From Abditibacteriota bacterium (GTDB lineage: Bacteria > Armatimonadota > UBA5829), in NCBI GenBank assembly GCA_017552965.1, contig JAFZNQ010000052.1, positions 1 to 64,000 on the forward strand: a stretch of 64,000 nucleotides of DNA, given 5' to 3'. The stretch's first letter is position 1; each line of letters starts with the position of its first letter. Shown here piece after piece: positions 53,698 to 64,000 of the stretch. Made by a program: the position numbers and the translations under genes. The notes beneath the pieces are model-generated. The model worked only from the letters and a program-made list of their open reading frames with translations, did no database searches and was not told where the DNA came from.

Positions 53698-56610
53698 TCA
53701 GCTCAGCCACACGGACACGTTGCTCCAGGCGCCGAGAGGCACGCAGAGCACTCCGTCCTTCACCGAAGCCGTGTTCTCCGGCTCCGGCTGCTCCAGAGCG
53801 TTGACGGTGACGGCGGAAGCAAAGTCTCCCAGTCCGTCCACCCTCACCCGGGCCACGGAATCCTTGCCCGCCACGTCGTAGAGGCGGACTATGATGCCCT
53901 TGCCGCACTCCGCCTTCTTCACGGCGGACACGTTGGCCTCGGGGGTCTCCAGCTCGGCATAGCTCTTCTCGAGAGGCAGCTCCCCGGTCTGCACGGGCAC
54001 GCTGGTGACGCTCATGGGGTTGTTGAAGTCCTCGCCCTCTCTCACCGCGCACACGGGGCAGAAGGCTCCCCGGCGGAACACCACGGAATACTCTATCTCG
54101 TGGTCGCCCAGATCGGGGGTGGGATCGGGACTGTAGCTGGACCTGAGCAGGGTCAGGCTGATGGTGTCGTCCACGCAGGCGTGGCCGTATTTGCTCTTGT
54201 TCACCAGGGTGACGCCGTATTCGCTGCCTGCGGCGTCCTCGCCTCCCAGGTCAAACCACTTCAGAGCGGGCACCTCCTGGTAGTCCTGCTCCTTGGTCTG
54301 CCAGCCGAAGGGGGTCTCGTAGGTGACGGCGCCGCCGGCAAAGGCGGTGGCAAAATAGGCTCTCAGAGTGGGGATGCCCTTCTCGTGGGCGCCCACCTCC
54401 AGCCATCTGGTCCTCACCCGGAAGTCCACCTTGCGGGAATCCTTGGCCAGGCTGGTCTCCAGGGACACAAAGCTCCTGCCGCACTCAAAGTCCACTCTCA
54501 CGGTGCACCTGTTGGGCCCCTGATGGACTATGGCAAAGGTGCCGTTTTCCAGCAGGGTGCGGCTGATGATGTGGGACAGGGACCAGGCAGCCATGCCGTT
54601 GCTCTGCTCGGTCTGGAGCTCCAGCTCGCCTATGCCTGCCTCTTCCCGGCAGTATTCGTAGCCGGTCTCCTTGTCCACGCAGCTCACCACCGCGCCGCTG
54701 GACTTGCTGACGGTGACTCTGAGATATTTGTTTTCCAGCACTATGTCGGGAGCCACCGAGGGGCTGAAGCCCTGCAGGTCCTGACTGTACACGTCCTTGA
54801 GGGTCACGGCGTCGGGAGTCTCCAGAGGCTCGGGACAGTCGTCCACGGCAAAGACCTTGTAGCCGAGAGCCGGGACGTCTTTGGCCTCAAACAGCAGGGC
54901 GTGATAGTCGTGCATGAAGTAGTTGCCGCTGTCTATGACCTGGGCCTTGACGCGACGGCCCTCGGAGTCTATGACGCAGATATTCGCGGGATCCATCTTC
55001 TTGTTCCAGATCTTGGCCATGATCACTTCGCTGCGCTTCCAGGGCTTGGGGTTGTACACCATGATGGGCTCGGCAGCCTCGCCGTTCAGGCTCAGCATGG
55101 TGGCGCCAAAGCCGTCATAGTTCAGGGTGTTGGTGACCACGGAGCCGCCCACTCTCACCCGGCTGTTGATGATGCCGGTGTCTCCGGAGCCTGCTCCCAT
55201 GCTGTCGCCCACCCTGTCGGCTATGAACCGCTTGGCTATCTCCGAGGTGTCTATGCGCTCCGCCAGGCGCCTCAGGGCCCTGTTCTTCACGGAGCTGGTG
55301 GCGGTCAGCACGTCCTGAAAGCTGCCGTTGGCATAGCTGTAGGTGGCCTTGACGCCGGAGCCCGGGAATATGTCGTGGAAGTGGCTGAAGAGGGTCTTCT
55401 GCCAGGCTTCCTCAAAGAGCCCGAAGGGATACTCCATGCCGCAGGCTGCGCCGCCTATGAGGGCCAGAGTCTCCGCGGAGGGCAGCTCCAGCTCGCTCAC
55501 CCGGTTGGCAAACTTGACGGAAGCCTGGGTGGTGTAGCAGCCCTCGAAGATGTAGTTGATGTCTCCCTCCACCACCGGCAGGTCCAGACTGTCCATCTGG
55601 GCCTCGATGGCCGAGTAGAATTCGTCGGTGGTGCTGAAGCGGACCTTCGGGAATATGGGATAGGTCATGAGCTCCAGTCCCTGTCTGATGTGGCCTCTGG
55701 TGGGGCCTCCGCCGTGGTCGCCCCAGCCGTACATATACATGAAGTCCTTGGCCTTGGTCTCCTTGACGTAGCCGCAGAAGCACTCCCACACCGCGTGGTT
55801 GATGGGACCGTTGTAGCCCCACTGGGGATCGGTCTCCCTGAAGCCCAGCAGCTCGCTGCCGTCCTTGGCCCGCCAGCGGAAGAGCCTGGGACCCTTGTGA
55901 GGGCGCATCCTGTAATATCTGGTCACTCCGCCCTTGGTCATGATGGAGGGCATCTGGGCGCAGTGGCCAAAGGTGTCGGGAGACCAGTCGATCTTCACGT
56001 CCTCCGGGCTCATGCCCAGGTTCTCCGACAGCCACTTGCGGGTGTAGAGCATATGCCGGATGAGGGATTCGCCGGACACGCAGTTCTTCTCTCCCTCCAC
56101 CCAGGTGGAAGCGGTCACTTCCCACTGGCCGCCGGCTATCTTTTCCCTGATGCTTTCCCACAGCTCGGGGAAATAGGTCTTCATGGCCTTGTAGAGAGAC
56201 ACCTGAGACTGGGAAAATTTGGCCTCCGGGAACTCGTCCAGGATGTTGTTCACCGTGTAAAAGGTGTCGTGGGCCGTGTTGGCCGTCTCGGGCCAGGACC
56301 ACATCCAGTTCATATCTATATGGGCGTGGCCCACGCAGTGGACGGTGTATTCCTTGGCCTTCTTCCCTATGGGAGCCAGAGCCTCCTCCACCTTTTTCAC
56401 CGTATCGTCCAGATGGTCGGGGTCTCCCTGCTCCACTGCCTTTACGGCCTCGCTGATATAGGGGGCCCACTCGGCCTCCTTGCCCAGGGCGTCGGCAAAC
56501 CGGACGGCAAAGTCTATCTCGGTGTCTATGCGGTAAAACTTCGCCTCCAGGGCCTCTCTCATGTCCCGGGCCTTCACGTTCAGCCTGTACTTGTCAAGTT
56601 CGAATGCCAT
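53698..56610 (-). CDS. GH38 alpha-mannosidase
   Basis: 970 residues, a usual length for the family. It hydrolyses alpha-mannosides. The zinc-binding GHAHIDMNW is at residues 94-102, and the catalytic nucleophile is D212 in DWSPDTFGHCAQMP. The GH38 N-terminal, helical middle and C-terminal beta domains follow in order. There is no signal peptide, so it acts in the cytoplasm on imported mannosides. It lies 19 bp behind an AraC-family regulator and next to a sugar ABC operon, suggesting a mannoside utilisation unit. Confidence 0.93.
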   Translation of the reverse strand: MAFELDKYRLNVKARDMREALEAKFYRIDTEIDFAVRFADALGKEAEWAPYISEAVKAVEQGDPDHLDDTVKKVEEALAPIGKKAKEYTVHCVGHAHIDMNWMWSWPETANTAHDTFYTVNNILDEFPEAKFSQSQVSLYKAMKTYFPELWESIREKIAGGQWEVTASTWVEGEKNCVSGESLIRHMLYTRKWLSENLGMSPEDVKIDWSPDTFGHCAQMPSIMTKGGVTRYYRMRPHKGPRLFRWRAKDGSELLGFRETDPQWGYNGPINHAVWECFCGYVKETKAKDFMYMYGWGDHGGGPTRGHIRQGLELMTYPIFPKVRFSTTDEFYSAIEAQMDSLDLPVVEGDINYIFEGCYTTQASVKFANRVSELELPSAETLALIGGAACGMEYPFGLFEEAWQKTLFSHFHDIFPGSGVKATYSYANGSFQDVLTATSSVKNRALRRLAERIDTSEIAKRFIADRVGDSMGAGSGDTGIINSRVRVGGSVVTNTLNYDGFGATMLSLNGEAAEPIMVYNPKPWKRSEVIMAKIWNKKMDPANICVIDSEGRRVKAQVIDSGNYFMHDYHALLFEAKDVPALGYKVFAVDDCPEPLETPDAVTLKDVYSQDLQGFSPSVAPDIVLENKYLRVTVSKSSGAVVSCVDKETGYEYCREEAGIGELELQTEQSNGMAAWSLSHIISRTLLENGTFAIVHQGPNRCTVRVDFECGRSFVSLETSLAKDSRKVDFRVRTRWLEVGAHEKGIPTLRAYFATAFAGGAVTYETPFGWQTKEQDYQEVPALKWFDLGGEDAAGSEYGVTLVNKSKYGHACVDDTISLTLLRSSYSPDPTPDLGDHEIEYSVVFRRGAFCPVCAVREGEDFNNPMSVTSVPVQTGELPLEKSYAELETPEANVSAVKKAECGKGIIVRLYDVAGKDSVARVRVDGLGDFASAVTVNALEQPEPENTASVKDGVLCVPLGAWSNVSVWLS

Positions 56611-56629: not shown

Positions 56630-57859
56630 TTATAATTCGTCTGCATAGCGCTCAAAGGCGTCGTTCCCCAGCTGGTCCTGCTGCTCCTTGTGCTTCATGC
56701 GGCGGAACTGGCCGGGGGTCTGTTTGGTGAACCGGAGGAACACCTTGGTAAAATAGCTCTGGTCGTTGAAGCCGGACTCGTGAGCCACGTCCACCAGAGA
56801 CATATCCGTGTAGAGCAGCAGCTCCTTGGCCTTGTCTATCCTGAACTTGGACACTACCTCCGTAAAGGACATGTCAAAGGTCTGCCGTATGACCCGGGAA
56901 AAATGAGAAGGGCTCAGGCAGGCCACCTCAGCCACATCTTCCCGGAGCATATTTTCCTTCAGGTGTTCCTTCATATATTTGATGGCTTCGGCCAGCTGCA
57001 TGTTGTTGGGATACATCCTGCTGTAGAGCAGAGTCTGGATGCACAGGTCCAGGACCCCCGCTATCCAGTCGTACATATCCGTCTCTTCCTCCAGCGCGGC
57101 CAGCTCCGTAAAGGCGTTGTAGCCCCTGCTGATGATGACCTCGCTGCTCCCGCCTGCCTCCACGGTGGTGCGGGCTATGGCCATGGCCAGCTCCAGCAGC
57201 ACCGTCTTCAGCAGCTCCAGCCTGCCTCCGGCCATCTTGCACATGGAGCCCACCATCTCATTGAGGATCTCCAGGGCTGCATCCGGCTCCACCCTCTTGA
57301 CGCAGGACAGCAGGGCCGGCTCCTTCACCAGATAAAAATCTCTCAGGGATTTGTAGTTGAAGCCCTTGGAGGACTCGGGGGCTGCGTTCTTGATAGCTTC
57401 GAATTCGGCGTGCTTTTTGTTCCGCTCCAGCAGGGCTTCGTTGGCCAGATTCATCCCGCACACCAGATCCCTCAGGCTCCACATGGCTTCGTCTATGACC
57501 TCAGGAGCCACAGTCCGGGAATCTATGTCCGAGTCGTATTCCACCACTACGCCCCCCAGCAGCCTGCCGTTGAACATCAGGGGCACGGCGTATATCATGA
57601 TGGCGGGCCGCCGCGCGGACTGTCTGCCGCAGCAGCCTCCCCGCTTCACCGCCGCAGCGATGGCTTCCCTGCGGTCCTGGCGCAGCTCGCCGCCGAACCT
57701 GCTGTCTCCGAATACGTCGACGCCGTCGGCGTCCGAGAGCAGGGTCTTCAGATGCCACTGCCGGGCAAAGCTTTGCGAAAGCAGCTGATAGGCAAAAAAA
57801 TAGTCCTTCAGCTCCACACACTGAACTGCTTCCGTAGTAATGATTTCATTGATATCCAC
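56630..57859 (-). CDS. AraC-family transcriptional regulator with N-terminal sensor domain
   Basis: 409 residues. The C-terminus (about 300-395) holds two helix-turn-helix motifs of the AraC type (LREDVAEVACLSPSHFSRVI and LVDVAHESGFNDQSYFTKVF, then TPGQFRR). The N-terminal part (about 1-150), with a GGCCGRQSARRPAIMIYAVP segment and a DLVCGMNLANEAL helix, resembles PocR/GAF-type ligand sensors. It probably controls the mannosidase gene that follows 19 bp downstream and perhaps the nearby ABC operon. Confidence 0.87.
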   Translation of the reverse strand: MDINEIITTEAVQCVELKDYFFAYQLLSQSFARQWHLKTLLSDADGVDVFGDSRFGGELRQDRREAIAAAVKRGGCCGRQSARRPAIMIYAVPLMFNGRLLGGVVVEYDSDIDSRTVAPEVIDEAMWSLRDLVCGMNLANEALLERNKKHAEFEAIKNAAPESSKGFNYKSLRDFYLVKEPALLSCVKRVEPDAALEILNEMVGSMCKMAGGRLELLKTVLLELAMAIARTTVEAGGSSEVIISRGYNAFTELAALEEETDMYDWIAGVLDLCIQTLLYSRMYPNNMQLAEAIKYMKEHLKENMLREDVAEVACLSPSHFSRVIRQTFDMSFTEVVSKFRIDKAKELLLYTDMSLVDVAHESGFNDQSYFTKVFLRFTKQTPGQFRRMKHKEQQDQLGNDAFERYADEL

Positions 57860-58054: not shown

Positions 58055-58085
58055 AAAAAAAAGCAGACCCCGGAAAGGGGTCTGC
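58055..58085 (-). terminator. Terminator of the sugar ABC operon
   Basis: Perfect 9-bp stem GCAGACCCC (58063-58071) / GGGGTCTGC (58077-58085), followed by a run of T residues on the minus strand. Confidence 0.85.
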
Positions 58086-58098
58086 GGACTGTCGGGCG

Positions 58099-59592
58099 TC
58101 AGCCCTTGATGCCCGTGAGGGTGATACCCTCGATGAAGTGCTTCTGGGCAAAGAAGAATATGATGAGCACCGGCAGTATCACCAGCACCGAGGCAGCCAT
58201 CAGCATGCCGTATTCGATGCCTGCCTCGCCCATAAAGAGCTGAAGGCCGTAGGCCAGGGTCATCTTTTCGGGCGAATTGATGTAGATCAGAGCGCCCATG
58301 AAGTTGTTCCAGGAGCCCATGAAGGTCATGATGGCCAGAGCGGCCAGAGCCGGCTTCACCAGAGGCATCAGGATCAGGACAAAGGTCTTGAAATAGCCTG
58401 CGCCGTCCAGTCTGGCGGCCTCCTCCAGGTCTCTGGGGATGCTCATGAAGAACTGGCGCATCAGGAACACCGCGAAGGCGGAGCCGAAGAAGGAAGGCAC
58501 CCACAGAGGATTGAGGGTGTCCACCCAGCCCAGGTATTTGAATATCATAAACACCGGGATCATGGTCACGGCGCCGGGCAGCATCATGGTAGCCAGCAGC
58601 AGGGCAAAGATGATGTCCTTGCCGGGCCATCTGAGCCTCGCGAAGGAATAGGCCACCAGGGAGCAGGAAAACAGGGTGCCGATGATGGAGAGCAGCGTCA
58701 CGTAGACGGTGTTCAGCAGATATACCAGACCCTTCTTGGTGCTCTTGGGCAGGAAGTCCAGAGCGTCGGGGTAGTTTTCCCACTTCAGACCGGGCTTGGA
58801 CACCTTGGTCAGGGCGGCGGTCTCGGTGATGTAGCTCTTGCCGCCGCCGGCAGCCGTCACCTTGACGGTGCCGTCCTCAAAGCCTTCCAGCTCATAGACG
58901 GTCTCGCCGGTCTCGTTGACGGTCCACACGGGGCACTTTTTGCCCTCAAACTCCACGGAGATCTGACGCTTGGGTATCCACTCCGGAGGGAACTTCATGA
59001 TCTGGTCGCTTTCCTTGAAGGAGGTACCCAGCAGCCAGACAAAGGGAGCCAGAAATATGACGGAGCCGGTGATCAGGATGACGGTGGCGCCGGAGAGGCT
59101 CATGAACTTGCGCCGGGCGCTCCTCTTCTTGAACACGTTTTCCGCGTGGCGGTAGCCCGTCAGATACACCGCAAAGACTGTGATGAACATCAGCAGGCAG
59201 GCCAGGAAGAACCGGAGGGACTTCACAGCCCCCACCCCGTCGGGCTCCGCCGCCTGCCCTATGGGCAGCACGCAGGGCGCCAGACAGGCAGCGGCCATGA
59301 GGAAGAGGGAGCCCGCCAGATTGGCGCGGCCGCCTCTGGCCAGAAAGCCCGCGGCGCACACCAGAGCCAGCGCCATGGCGCACCAGTCCGCCGCTACGGC
59401 GCTGCGGAACACCAGCCGGCCCAGTATCAGAGCCACGGCCAGATACACTATGAACGCGCCGGCTTCCTTCCAGAAGCGCCCTTCCTTGAAGGACTCCTGA
59501 CATATGGTGATGAAGTAGGTCACCGCGGCGTAGCCCAGAGCGGCGCCCACTATCCAGAAGACAGGCATCAGGTTGGTCAGTGTACGTATCAT
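58099..59592 (-). CDS. Sugar ABC transporter permease, MalG-like, with N-terminal and loop extensions
   Basis: 497 residues, whereas MalG-type permeases have about 280. The last 330 residues contain the permease core with the EAA loop (EEAARLDGAGYFKTFVLILMPLVKPAL) that contacts the ATPase. About 160 residues with five extra transmembrane helices precede it. A beta-rich insert of about 60 residues (near 205-270, containing CPVWTVNETGETVYEL) interrupts the first periplasmic loop. It starts on the stop of the fused binding-protein/permease gene (TAATG), so the two are coupled. No ATPase gene is in the window; a shared MsmK-type ATPase is likely. Confidence 0.88.
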   Translation of the reverse strand: MIRTLTNLMPVFWIVGAALGYAAVTYFITICQESFKEGRFWKEAGAFIVYLAVALILGRLVFRSAVAADWCAMALALVCAAGFLARGGRANLAGSLFLMAAACLAPCVLPIGQAAEPDGVGAVKSLRFFLACLLMFITVFAVYLTGYRHAENVFKKRSARRKFMSLSGATVILITGSVIFLAPFVWLLGTSFKESDQIMKFPPEWIPKRQISVEFEGKKCPVWTVNETGETVYELEGFEDGTVKVTAAGGGKSYITETAALTKVSKPGLKWENYPDALDFLPKSTKKGLVYLLNTVYVTLLSIIGTLFSCSLVAYSFARLRWPGKDIIFALLLATMMLPGAVTMIPVFMIFKYLGWVDTLNPLWVPSFFGSAFAVFLMRQFFMSIPRDLEEAARLDGAGYFKTFVLILMPLVKPALAALAIMTFMGSWNNFMGALIYINSPEKMTLAYGLQLFMGEAGIEYGMLMAASVLVILPVLIIFFFAQKHFIEGITLTGIKG

Positions 59593-61982
59593 TATCTCTC
59601 ACCGCCTTCGTAATAAACCCATTTGTTGGCCAGCTTCAGCTGTATGATGGTCAGTATAAACACTATGAGGAACAATATCCAGGCCACAGCGGAGGCGTAT
59701 CCCATGCGGAACTCGCCGAAGGCGCGGTTGAACAGATAGAGCACCGGCACCAGGGTGGCCTCCACGGGACCGCCGCTGGTCATGATATACTGAGCTTCGA
59801 AGCTCTGCAGCACGCCGATGATGCCCATGATCAGATTGAAGAATATGTAGGGGGTGATCATGGGGATGGTCACCTTCCAGAACTTGACCCAGCTGTTGGC
59901 GCCGTCGATCTCCGCCGCCTCATACAGGGCTCTGTTGATGCCCTGCAGTCCGGCCAGCCAGAGGATCATGCCGCCGCCGGCGCCCCACAGACCCATGAGG
60001 ATGAGGGCGGGCTTGGCGGTCTTTTCGGCTGCCAGCCAGGCGGGAGGCTCTATGTTGAACCATTGGGTCAGAGAGGCCTTCCAGGCCACGTTGATCAGAC
60101 CGTACTCGGGATTCAGGATCCAGGTCCACAGGATGGCGGTGGCCACGATGGGCATGATGGAGGGCAGGTAGTAGATGGTCCTGTACCAGGTCATACCCTT
60201 GATGTCCATGTTCAGCAGGAGGGCGATACACAGGCTGGTGGCCATGCCCAGAGGCAGTCCGAATACAGCCAGATAGAAGGCGTTGTATATGGACTTGCTC
60301 ATGTAGTACCATTCCTCGGGGCCGAAGATCTCCTTGTAGTTCAGCACGCCTACCCAGCGGGCGGGGTGCAGCACGTCATAGTTGCAGAAGGAAAAGACGA
60401 AGGACATGATGATGGGCACCAGAGTGAACACCAGGAAGCCGAACATCCAGGGAGACGCGCAGATGACGGCGGCTCCGAACTCCTGCTTGGCTATGCGGGA
60501 CAGGCGCTGCTTGCGGACGTTGATATAGCATATGACCGCCAGCACCAGACAGGCTATAAGCCCTATGGCGATAGGTATGTTCCAATTCAGCAGAGGATAG
60601 TCGTTCTGATGGAAGAACTTGTCCAGGGCTCCCTGCACGTTGCGGTCCGCCTCCTTGACGGCTTCCGCGGGAGTGGCCATGCCGTACACGGCCTGCTGAA
60701 AAGCCCGGTCATGCTCGTTCCAGAGCCTCTGGCTGATCATAGTGGTGGGGCGATAGTAAGAGAAGTCCAGCGCCTCCATGCCCAGCAGCATGGGATCCCG
60801 GAATTTCCGCTCTATATTGGCGGTGTATTTGGCCACCATGGCCTCGTTGACCTTGCGGTTGCACTGGAACCAGGGCACGAAGGGCCTGTTGCGCTCCAGA
60901 TTGTATTTCTTCTGCTCCCGCATGGTCAGGTCCACGCCCTCCATGCTGGTCATCCACTTCATGAATTCCCAGGCCATATCCCTGTGCTTGCTGCCCCGGG
61001 GCATCACGTAGGCAAAGCCGCCGGTCCAGGTGACCCAGGTCTGAGTCTCGTTTTTGAAGTCCCCGGTGTGATTGTATCTGTCGTCGGGGATGGGAGGCAG
61101 ACAGGCTCCCAGCTCCATTTCGGGGTGCCATCTGGCTATGTTGCCCACCAGACCCACGCAGTCGATGCGCATGGCTATCTTGCCGGTCATGAAGGGGTCG
61201 AACTCCATGCCGGTGAAGCCGGACACGAAGCTGTTGAGCTTTTCGATGCCGTCATAGCGGTTGTAGAAGTTCACCATCCACTCCAGGGCCTTCAGGCTCT
61301 TGGGGTTGTCTATGGTGCACTCCTTCAGGTCCTCGCTCATGAACTTGCCGCCCATCATCCAGCTGTAGAGATAGAACCAGGCGTTGCCGTAGTTGGGTAT
61401 GAAGCCGATGGAGTCATAGCCCGTCTTGTTGCGCTTGGTCAGCTTGTCGGAATATTCCTGCAGCTCGCTCCAGGTCCTGGGGGGCCTCTCCGGATCCAGA
61501 CCGGCTTCCCTGAACATCTTCTTGTTGTAGAACATGAGCCTGGAGTCGATGTCGGTGGGCACTCCGTAGGCCTTGCCGTCATACTTTACCTCGTCCCAGG
61601 CAGCAGGATAGAATTCCTCCGGCCGGACGCCGCCTTCCTTGTCCCTGTCTCTCTCGATCAGGTCGTCGATAGGCTGCAGAGTGTCTCTCGAGGCCCAGTC
61701 CGCAATGGTGAACCGGTCCTGATAGACCACGTCGGGAGGAGCATCGCCCACGATGGCGGTCAGCAGCTTCTGGGGATTCATGCCTCCCGCGCCCATGGAG
61801 AGCATCTCCACGGTCACGCCGGGATGCCGTTCCTCAAATACCTTGACGGCAGCCTCCCAGCCCTTTGACCTGTCCACCACCAGCGGACCCCATACCCGGA
61901 GCTTGTAGTTCTCCGCGTAAGAGGCGCCTGCCGACAGCAACACGGCTAAAAGGATCACAACAAACAACGCTTTTATTTTCAT
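59592..61982 (-). CDS. Fused solute-binding protein and sugar ABC permease (MalF-like)
   Basis: 796 residues. Residues 1-24 are a signal peptide (MKIKALFVVILLAVLLSAGA). Residues about 25-440 form a type 1 sugar-binding protein (KLRVWGPLVVDRSKGWEAAVKVF, GDAPPDVVYQD). One transmembrane helix near 465 leads to a complete MalF-type permease (about 500-796) with the EAA loop ALYEAAEIDGANSWVKFWKV. The binding protein is thus tethered to its own channel subunit. Probably imports an oligosaccharide; substrate unknown. First gene of a two-gene operon with a TTGACA/TATAAT promoter. Confidence 0.92.
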   Translation of the reverse strand: MKIKALFVVILLAVLLSAGASYAENYKLRVWGPLVVDRSKGWEAAVKVFEERHPGVTVEMLSMGAGGMNPQKLLTAIVGDAPPDVVYQDRFTIADWASRDTLQPIDDLIERDRDKEGGVRPEEFYPAAWDEVKYDGKAYGVPTDIDSRLMFYNKKMFREAGLDPERPPRTWSELQEYSDKLTKRNKTGYDSIGFIPNYGNAWFYLYSWMMGGKFMSEDLKECTIDNPKSLKALEWMVNFYNRYDGIEKLNSFVSGFTGMEFDPFMTGKIAMRIDCVGLVGNIARWHPEMELGACLPPIPDDRYNHTGDFKNETQTWVTWTGGFAYVMPRGSKHRDMAWEFMKWMTSMEGVDLTMREQKKYNLERNRPFVPWFQCNRKVNEAMVAKYTANIERKFRDPMLLGMEALDFSYYRPTTMISQRLWNEHDRAFQQAVYGMATPAEAVKEADRNVQGALDKFFHQNDYPLLNWNIPIAIGLIACLVLAVICYINVRKQRLSRIAKQEFGAAVICASPWMFGFLVFTLVPIIMSFVFSFCNYDVLHPARWVGVLNYKEIFGPEEWYYMSKSIYNAFYLAVFGLPLGMATSLCIALLLNMDIKGMTWYRTIYYLPSIMPIVATAILWTWILNPEYGLINVAWKASLTQWFNIEPPAWLAAEKTAKPALILMGLWGAGGGMILWLAGLQGINRALYEAAEIDGANSWVKFWKVTIPMITPYIFFNLIMGIIGVLQSFEAQYIMTSGGPVEATLVPVLYLFNRAFGEFRMGYASAVAWILFLIVFILTIIQLKLANKWVYYEGGER

Positions 61983-62049: not shown

Positions 62050-62079
62050 ATTATAAATACAATATGAGGGCTTTGTCAA
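62050..62079 (-). promoter_or_regulatory. Promoter of the sugar ABC operon
   Basis: TTGACA, 18 bp, TATAAT on the minus strand. The -35 directly follows the hairpin at the murJ end. Confidence 0.82.
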
Positions 62080-62080
62080 G

Positions 62081-62110
62081 AAAGACAGGGCCTCAGTCCC
62101 CGCTGTCTTT
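62081..62110 (-). terminator. Hairpin around the murJ stop codon
   Basis: Arms AAAGACAG (62081-62088) and CTGTCTTT (62103-62110) with the murJ stop codon in the loop. It ends one base before the -35 of the next promoter on the same strand. Confidence 0.6.
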
Positions 62111-64000
62111 CCCGTCCGGGGCGGGCTCTCCGCCGCCGGACCCCTGCCCGTCCTCCTCCGGAGCCCCGCCGGCTCCCGGAGCGGCCTCCTCCGCCGGGGC
62201 GGAGGCCTTTTTCCGTCTGAACATGCGGGTGACGTTGGCTATGATCTCATCCATCTCCCGGATGCCCAGCCGCTTCAGCACCAGATAATAGGCGCCGAGA
62301 CACACCAGCATGGCCACCAGCAGCGTCAGGCCGCTGGTCAGGTTGCCCTCTATCCTCATGAGGGGCCTGGGCTTCACGTAGGAAGGCAGATCCCGGATAA
62401 GGGCGTCTCTCTTTTGCTTTTGTCCGGCTTTGGACTCGTGGCCTCTGCCGGTGATATAGTCGTTCATGCACTCCATGATGTCCCGCGGCAGGGTGGAGGT
62501 GGCCTCGGACAGGTCCAGCAGCCTCTCGGTCCTGGCCTTCAGGGTGACGCTCATGGCGCCTCTCACAGCCTTCGCTGCCTCGGACTTGCCCGTGAGGATC
62601 TCCCGGGAGAGCTTTTCCGTGCTGATCACGTCCCGGGAGAGATACAGACCGTCGGGAGAAGACAGGGACCTCTGAGAGGCCTCCCTGCCTATTATCAGCC
62701 GGGCCAGCAGGGTGCCGGAGCTCCTGTATTCCCGCAGGGAATCGGAGAACACCGTGTCAAAAAACCGCCTGTTGTCAAAGACGTCGCCCTTCTTCATGGC
62801 GTCGGCCTCCATGAGCCGGTTGATGCAGTCCGTCAGCCCCTCGTCCACGCTTCTTTTGGTGGACACGTACAGCCTGTACCGGCTGGTCTCGAGAAACACG
62901 TCCCCGGGGATGCAGGCCTTGTAGGGCTCGTATTTGGGGTCGTGGGTCCTCTGGAGAAAGACCGCCAGCCTCTGAGGGTTCCTGATGTCCCCGTCCACCA
63001 GCTTCCAGGTCCCCAGCAGGGCGTAGCCCGCATACCTGACGCCGAAGCACAGGACCGCCAGCGCGCAGGTCCCCACCAGGACCCTTTTCACCGTGTAGAT
63101 GATCCGGCCGCCGTCGATGCCGCCTATCTTTTTGCGCAGCCAGCAGGTCAGGATGGTAAAGTGGATGATGATGCCCACGGTGGTGGCGAGAGCCAGACCG
63201 CCGCAGCCCAGCAGCTTGATGAATATGAAGTTGAGAGGGATGAATATGACTGTGGTGATGGTGCCTATGATCACGGGGCTCACCGTGTCCTGTATGGCAA
63301 AGAAGCCTCTGGACACTATGGCCTGACCGGCCCAGGCAAAGATGCCTATGGAATAAAACACGAAGCAGAGGGCCGTGATGGGCACGTCGGCGGCTGTGAA
63401 GGACCGCCACATATACACCGTGCGGACTATGGGGTCGGCCATGATCATCATGAAGGCGGTGACGGGTATGTTTTCTATGAGAATGGTGGAGAGGCCGTAG
63501 CCCACTCCGCTCCGCAGGTTGTCCCACTCCTTTTTGGCCGCATAGGCGGACAGGGCGGGGAGGATGGCCGTGCCCGTGGCCTGGGCAAAGATGCCTATGG
63601 GCACCTGCATGAGCCTGTTGGCGTAGTTCAGGGCGGCGGGAGCCACCTCGCTGACCCAGCTGGCAAACCATTTGTTGATGATCACGTCTATCTGGGGCAG
63701 GCTCAGGCCGAAGATCACAGGTATGGCCAGTATGGCCACCCTCACCACTCCGGGATGATTGAGCTTCAGGGAAAAGTGATACTCAAAGCCTTCCTTTTTC
63801 AGGGTGTACCAGGTATAGACTATGTTGCCGGCAAAGGAGCCCAGCAGGGTGCCTACGGCCAGTCCCTTGACCCCTATGAACCGCCCCAGGAGCAGGGCTC
63901 CCAGGATGATGCCCAGATTGTATATGATGGGACACATGCTCCGGGCGTCAAAGTTCTTGCGGGCCTCCAGAGTGCCCATCATGAGACCGCCCACGAAGAA
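62093..64000 (-). CDS. murJ: Lipid II flippase MurJ/MviN family, with large insertion (N-terminus outside window)
   Basis: 635 residues are visible and the frame stays open to the window edge, so the N-terminal helices are missing. MurJ flips lipid II across the membrane for peptidoglycan synthesis. The visible MATE-like helices include VRVAILAIPVIFGLSLPQID and NYANRLMQVPIGIFAQATG, typical of MviN. About 225 residues that are not membrane-like (62345-63020) lie between the penultimate and last helices; known MurJ proteins have a short loop there. The C-terminal tail is Pro/Gly/Glu/Ala-rich (AEEAAPGAGGAPEEDGQGSG). It ends just before the ABC operon promoter. Confidence 0.9.
   Translation of the reverse strand, partial: FFVGGLMMGTLEARKNFDARSMCPIIYNLGIILGALLLGRFIGVKGLAVGTLLGSFAGNIVYTWYTLKKEGFEYHFSLKLNHPGVVRVAILAIPVIFGLSLPQIDVIINKWFASWVSEVAPAALNYANRLMQVPIGIFAQATGTAILPALSAYAAKKEWDNLRSGVGYGLSTILIENIPVTAFMMIMADPIVRTVYMWRSFTAADVPITALCFVFYSIGIFAWAGQAIVSRGFFAIQDTVSPVIIGTITTVIFIPLNFIFIKLLGCGGLALATTVGIIIHFTILTCWLRKKIGGIDGGRIIYTVKRVLVGTCALAVLCFGVRYAGYALLGTWKLVDGDIRNPQRLAVFLQRTHDPKYEPYKACIPGDVFLETSRYRLYVSTKRSVDEGLTDCINRLMEADAMKKGDVFDNRRFFDTVFSDSLREYRSSGTLLARLIIGREASQRSLSSPDGLYLSRDVISTEKLSREILTGKSEAAKAVRGAMSVTLKARTERLLDLSEATSTLPRDIMECMNDYITGRGHESKAGQKQKRDALIRDLPSYVKPRPLMRIEGNLTSGLTLLVAMLVCLGAYYLVLKRLGIREMDEIIANVTRMFRRKKASAPAEEAAPGAGGAPEEDGQGSGGGEPAPDGKDSGD

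Follow-up and report, generated by a model that had tools for sequence, protein, structure and literature searches.

In E. coli the sugar-binding protein is a separate molecule present in excess over the permease, a large P2 loop is part of MalF, and MalG has neither a P1 insert nor extra N-terminal helices. Receptors are far more abundant than transporters in standard sugar importers; the E. coli maltose receptor exceeds its transporter 30-50-fold according to PMC9045158, where internal terminators between the genes for the solute-binding protein (SBP) and the permease are described as keeping the receptor in excess. Among transporters of other substrates, GlnPQ is described as a homodimer with several receptors per transporter (PMC8025302) and OpuA as using two SBDs (PMC11065425). 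For sugars, Licht et al. 2019 (Res Microbiol 170:1-12) reported, as described in PMC7756565 and PMC9045158, a transporter for maltose and maltodextrin in which MalF is fused to one MalE domain; PMC7756565, citing that study, describes MalE fused to MalF as transport-competent. The fused receptor-MalF architecture is already known for sugar importers, namely from Bdellovibrio.

The window considered here is a stretch of 64,000 nucleotides from an Abditibacteriota bacterium of the rumen (Armatimonadota, UBA5829; GenBank assembly GCA_017552965.1, contig JAFZNQ010000052.1, positions 1 to 64,000). It contains a locus that very probably encodes a CUT1-type importer in which the receptor is permanently part of MalF, accompanied by a MalG-type partner and served by a shared ATPase encoded elsewhere. 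Our search of the literature on fused ABC transporters in Armatimonadetes/Armatimonadota found nothing relevant.

Domain architecture of the fused protein

The fused gene and its parts are as follows:
59592..61982, minus strand: fused solute-binding protein/MalF-type permease, 796 aa (ORF, Pfam, homologues)
61908..61982, minus strand: signal peptide, residues 1-25, with a SPase I-like end (...SYA, then EN; hydropathy and sequence)
60618..61907, minus strand: type 1 sugar-binding domain, residues 26-455 (SBP_bac_1/SBP_bac_8, PDB match, model)
60483..60617, minus strand: linker and extra membrane helix TM0, residues 456-500 (alignment, hydropathy)
60522-60578, minus strand: TM0 itself, residues 469-487, followed by a basic cytoplasmic segment (hydropathy)
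59595..60482, minus strand: MalF-type permease domain, residues 501-796 (BPD_transp_1, helix positions)
59862..59921, minus strand: EAA loop of the MalF half, EAAEIDGANSWVKFWKVTIP (sequence, invariant alignment columns)

The reading frame runs from ATG to TAA with zero internal stops. Pfam assigns SBP_bac_1 to residues 39-349 (1e-41), with SBP_bac_8 also matched in the binding domain, and BPD_transp_1 to residues 587-784 (3.4e-14), while the NCBIfam families nearest to the permease half are UgpA, GlcT and MalF, all below their equivalog cut-offs. The hydropathy profile reveals a signal peptide (residues 3-21), a lone helix between the domains (469-487) and the permease helices thereafter. ORF, Pfam and hydropathy thus agree with the earlier note on this DNA, which had described one chain with signal peptide, sugar-binding protein, linker helix and MalF-like permease with an EAA loop. 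The signal peptide has no lipobox Cys, which is present in some relatives. In the predicted model of the chain the binding domain reaches a pLDDT of ~90 over most of its length, and the permease is weaker.

The segment between the two domains is 56-58 residues long in 19/19 aligned homologues and has a conserved VQ..LDK-like start; all 19 also possess a hydrophobic stretch followed by 3-6 Lys/Arg, corresponding to TM0 and its basic tail. Following the positive-inside rule used for membrane topology, this arrangement would place the binding domain outside and restore the N-inside start of the MalF half. The first and second permease helices are separated by ~38 residues, a spacing that indicates that the large P2 loop seen in E. 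coli MalF is absent. In the EAA loop of this half E688, A689, D693 and G694 are conserved.

The MalG-type partner

Downstream of the fused gene we found the second permease:
58099..59592, minus strand: partner MalG-type permease, 497 aa (ORF, Pfam, NCBIfam)
59143..59592, minus strand: about five extra N-terminal hydrophobic segments, residues 1-150 (hydropathy)
58768..58980, minus strand: expanded beta-rich periplasmic P1 loop, residues ~205-275 (hydropathy, loop measurement, model)
58363..58425, minus strand: EAA loop, E390...D396 G397... (sequence, invariant residues)

The start codon of the partner (ATG) shares one base with the stop codon that ends the fused gene (TAATG). The protein matches BPD_transp_1 and is nearest to MalG/UgpE in NCBIfam, below the equivalog cut-offs; residues 1-150 have no Pfam match above the cut-off. 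The predicted model shows eight short strands in the P1 insert (208-267, pLDDT ~80), for which we detected no significant match among Pfam and PDB sequences. The mean pLDDT of the partner is 60 overall, and Foldseek retrieved folds of the MalG/MalF type, the model being too weak to place the insert.

Among the partners whose P1 ends could both be located by a simple motif search, which failed for some proteins, the P1 stretch spans ~96-111 residues in most family partners and ~158 in family f16, compared with ~24-62 residues in ordinary MalGs. Long P1 loops are also present in the partners of two distant fusions (L124, L129), and in the partner of L143, an unfused permease located next to the fused gene in genome G019. 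Some related fused systems have no insert. Hence tethering does not need the insert and, as the unfused pair of L143 carries it, the insert is not strictly tied to fusion.

Phyletic distribution of the fusion

Matches to the fused protein at E<=1e-120 were found in 170 of the 291 genomes of the phylum, including 132 of the 194 good genomes, and in 91 of 156 genera. There is usually one match per genome, and nearly all of those listed span the whole query without a stop, the exceptions being G019 (one in-frame TAG), G167 (one TGA) and G020 (in two pieces). Fusions with 44-58% identity are spread over many families in a set of 61 relatives, and direct ORF calls confirmed more than 40 fused loci within the phylum. 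Fusions were counted from full-span matches without stops or from direct ORF calls; the length of the open frame as sole criterion was rejected, as it may take in the neighboring gene by reading through a stop codon (L131 and L132 proved to be unfused).

The Riflebacteria fusions proved to be single ORFs, 762-775 aa long. Fused sugar importers are common in two of the phyla sampled. In the unfused relatives extracted from other phyla the halves are on separate ORFs and, where the pair is complete, they are usually adjacent genes, SBP followed by MalF. No full-span, stop-free match was listed for 299 Bacillota and 198 Actinomycetota genomes, in searches that took the top few candidates per genome under strict E-value limits, which rarer or more distant fusions could escape.

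The earlier note had recommended a search for the same domain order in sugar importers, and this order is indeed found throughout the phylum, in Riflebacteria and in the published MalE-MalF of Bdellovibrio. Its view of tethering as limited to groups such as amino-acid importers was therefore incomplete.

Origin of the fusion

In a tree built from 77 rows of the MalF half, the fusions of the window's type form one clade of 19 rows (support 100/98), the sister of which is a set of unfused permeases (joining branch 98/92). Apart from this clade lie the Riflebacteria group and two further groups of fusions from the phylum, one of which includes a second fusion from the same genome (C101). A single origin of all sampled fusions, Riflebacteria included, was rejected by the AU test (p=0.005), while one clade of fusions within the window's phylum was not (p-AU 0.096). 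These analyses support at least two origins of the fusion and suggest three or four. As the SBP gene commonly lies directly before malF in unfused relatives, a fusion in which a stop was lost and TM0 gained is plausible, and the fused gene presumably arose from neighboring SBP and malF genes.

Genomic neighborhood and the ATPase

The surroundings of the pair contain the following elements:
62050..62079, minus strand: promoter-like site TTGACA-18-TATAAT, 12/12, 67 bases before the start codon (consensus match only)
58063..58085, minus strand: terminator-like hairpin of 9 pairs with 8 T, directly after the partner gene (consensus match only)
56630..57859, minus strand: AraC-type regulator, downstream of the terminator-like site (ORF, NCBIfam)
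53698..56610, minus strand: 970-aa homologue of GH38-type alpha-mannosidases, downstream of the AraC-type regulator (weak NCBIfam match)

The promoter-like and terminator-like sites bracket exactly the fused gene and its partner, which therefore look like a transcription unit of their own, and the AraC-type regulator and the GH38 gene are probably transcribed separately. Neither this arrangement nor the unusual MalG partner had been remarked on in the earlier note. The 970-aa ORF matches the NCBIfam mannosylglycerate hydrolase family far below the cut-off, and we take it to be a putative member of GH38. Across 15 loci of the phylum, the conserved neighborhood consists of the fused gene (15/15) and the MalG-type partner (12/15); beyond these, one other family is found in 3/15 loci and none in more.

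The separate MsmK-type ATPase that had been anticipated for this system has a good candidate, since the genome contains a single TOBE_2 ATPase (C9:128863, 369 aa, MalK/MsmK-type), encoded on another contig. Its motifs are intact (Walker A GPSGCGKT, LSGGQ), and in the stretch read we found no permease genes beside it. Most relatives with a TOBE_2 match also have one or two. The genome has four SBP matches, two of them fused and two adjoining permease genes.

Putative substrate

By both sequence (phmmer) and fold search the nearest solved binding domain is CpMnBP1, with mannotriose or mannobiose (PDB 4r9f/4r9g); in fold, the binding domain resembles proteins that bind oligosaccharides. The GH38-type gene lies two genes downstream of the fused pair, beyond the terminator-like site; a GH38 match was found beside no other sampled family member except in the sister genome, and a GH38-like ORF adjoins the best Actinomycetota relative (L168), which is unfused. 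A conserved catabolic operon that would name one substrate was sought and not found: the neighbors differ between loci, with a GH38 gene here, GH127 in L141 and unrelated genes elsewhere. These weak clues point to a mannoside as a possible substrate, which we rate as somewhat less likely than not.

Proposed mechanism and alternative explanations

The locus and the genome provide the features of a CUT1 system: an SBP_bac_1 domain, MalF- and MalG-type permeases with EAA loops, and a TOBE ATPase. In the mechanism that we propose, the signal peptide would export the binding domain, TM0 would cross the membrane from outside to inside, leaving the MalF half in its normal N-inside topology, and this half would pair with the MalG-type partner, so that each transporter would have exactly one receptor. 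The fixed 1:1 ratio put forward in the earlier note follows from the single chain, and the other SBPs of the genome are fused or lie beside their own permeases. Once closed on the sugar, the tethered domain would dock at the mouth formed by MalF and MalG, and a dimer of the shared MalK/MsmK-type ATPase would open the inward path by hydrolysing ATP. As the large P2 loop is missing from MalF, the conserved beta-rich P1 insert of the partner probably guides or holds the tethered domain, a role at which we can only guess from a poor model of the partner. The fusion would trade a large free receptor pool for a high local concentration.

Fused ORFs can come from a miscalled stop, and in close unfused relatives both genes are adjacent and in the same order, which could speak for two separate genes joined by a sequencing or assembly error. 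We nevertheless consider such an error practically ruled out. The missed stop near 60600 that the note had named as the sign of an artefact is not present in the fused ORF; a full-length fusion with 95% identity occurs in an independent Abditibacteriota MAG from yak rumen, the closest named genome; and homologous fusions are present in numerous families of the phylum, some of them in genomes assembled as a single contig (G047, G077, G234). Between the window and the 95% relative, the changes at codon positions 1, 2 and 3 number 11, 5 and 122 in the binding domain, 4, 5 and 17 in the linker with TM0, and 15, 2 and 109 in the permease; synonymous changes predominate in both domains, the linker substitutions are of the coding type, and TM0 is conserved.

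The same comparison reveals lower conservation of the linker and TM0 (nonsynonymous changes in 7/45 codons vs 8/430 in the binding domain), as might be expected if the chain were cut between the binding domain and TM0 after export, releasing the binding protein to work in an importer of the ordinary kind. We regard this as improbable: the VQ..LDK segment and TM0 are kept, at nearly constant length, in all the aligned homologues, no obvious cleavage motif is seen, and TM0 would have no evident function after a cut. Still less probable is that the fused protein is chiefly a sensor or receptor for sugar and not a transporter. Such a role would fit the separation of the pair from catabolic genes by the promoter-like and terminator-like sites and the adjoining AraC-type regulator, but not the invariant Glu, Asp and Gly residues in the EAA loops of both permease subunits, nor the presence of a MalK-type ATPase with intact motifs.

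Within the reading as a tethered importer, the system may, though we find it rather doubtful, represent a phylum-specific class in which a TM0-tethered receptor is combined with a P1 beta domain and extra helices of MalG that replace the P2 loop of MalF as a clamp. If so, the P1 domain and the extra helices would keep the tethered receptor docked or primed, and the importer would be of high affinity and low capacity, with one receptor per channel. A whole phylum with the 1:1 tethered form, possibly fixed more than once, offers a natural series for studying the purpose of the free receptor pool, and also how a receptor serves the channel to which it is joined when MalF lacks the P2 loop. Counts of free sugar-binding proteins based on domains only would include tethered ones.

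Comparison with known systems

The MalE-MalF protein of Bdellovibrio is likewise a MalF-type sugar importer with one binding domain fused to MalF. Our fold search retrieved a MalE domain from Bdellovibrio bacteriovorus (PDB 6ffl), which we take to belong to the 2019 study of Licht and co-workers; it matches the fused protein over part of the domain (phmmer 7.1e-7) and in fold, with 18% identity, the comparison being confined to this MalE domain. The rows of the tree do not include the Bdellovibrio protein. CpMnBP1, the mannan-binding protein of Caldanaerobius, binds mannan oligosaccharides and is a separate protein, with 25% identity to the fused binding domain.

In the E. coli MalEFGK2 and UgpBAEC systems the binding protein, the two permeases and the TOBE-type ATPase belong to the same CUT1 families, whereas here the receptor is tethered, the large P2 loop is absent, and MalG possesses an insert and extra helices. 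In OpuA and GlnPQ the receptor is likewise covalently tethered to the permease, but the substrate families are different, and instead of a homodimer with at least two receptors, the distinct MalF and MalG subunits here would form a heterodimer bearing a single receptor, which lies N-terminally on the MalF subunit. Importers of the MsmK/MsiK type likewise have permease genes without an ATPase gene of their own and one shared MalK-type ATPase, but their binding protein is normally a separate (lipo)protein. Compared with these systems, what is new here is the lineage, the phylum-wide conservation, the more than one origin of the fusion, the extended MalG with its insert and extra helices, and the MalF without the P2 loop.

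Genomic surroundings of the fused gene

The gene encoding the fused binding protein and permease, with a GC3 of 0.84, is overlapped by a long antisense open frame and lies beside a gene for MurJ.

59580-61868 (+): open frame of 762 aa, antisense to the fused gene
62093-63994 (-): MurJ lipid II flippase gene, incomplete at the window end; counterpart in the sister genome, L137:11605-13851

The 762-aa frame is most likely a by-product of the GC-rich third codon positions. The MurJ proteins encoded in the window and in L137 possess a long C-terminal extension; in the 748-residue protein of the sister genome the Pfam match to MurJ spans residues 32-467, and the residues beyond it have no Pfam match.

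Variation among fused homologs

In a crude motif search of the N-termini, many fused homologs proved to retain a lipobox-like cysteine. No such residue occurs in the window protein or in its sister, both of which carry a signal of the SPase I-like type. The lipid anchor may be dispensable once the receptor is tethered.

In the single-contig genome G019 (L143, G019:C1:2180718-2185270), the fused gene carries an in-frame TAG inside the binding domain, and is adjoined by a divergent unfused MalF-MalG pair. The MalG of this pair bears the long loop, and the pair is not accompanied by an SBP match. An unfused MalF-type match likewise adjoins the fused gene of G025 (G025:C173), and a further main-family copy (G167:C146:13617-16013) contains one in-frame TGA.

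Distant relatives

The window's genome encodes a second SBP-permease fusion of at least 746 aa (contig G000:C101; loci L008 and L004), a distant relative of the window protein, whose MalG partner is devoid of the long loop. In Riflebacteria, the phylum of Candidatus Ozemobacter, we found separate SBP-MalF fusions of 762-775 aa (L161-L164), and the MalG insert is absent from these systems. In the best relative from Actinomycetota (L168, genome G660), SBP, MalF and MalG are encoded by unfused genes, directly followed by a GH38-like ORF.
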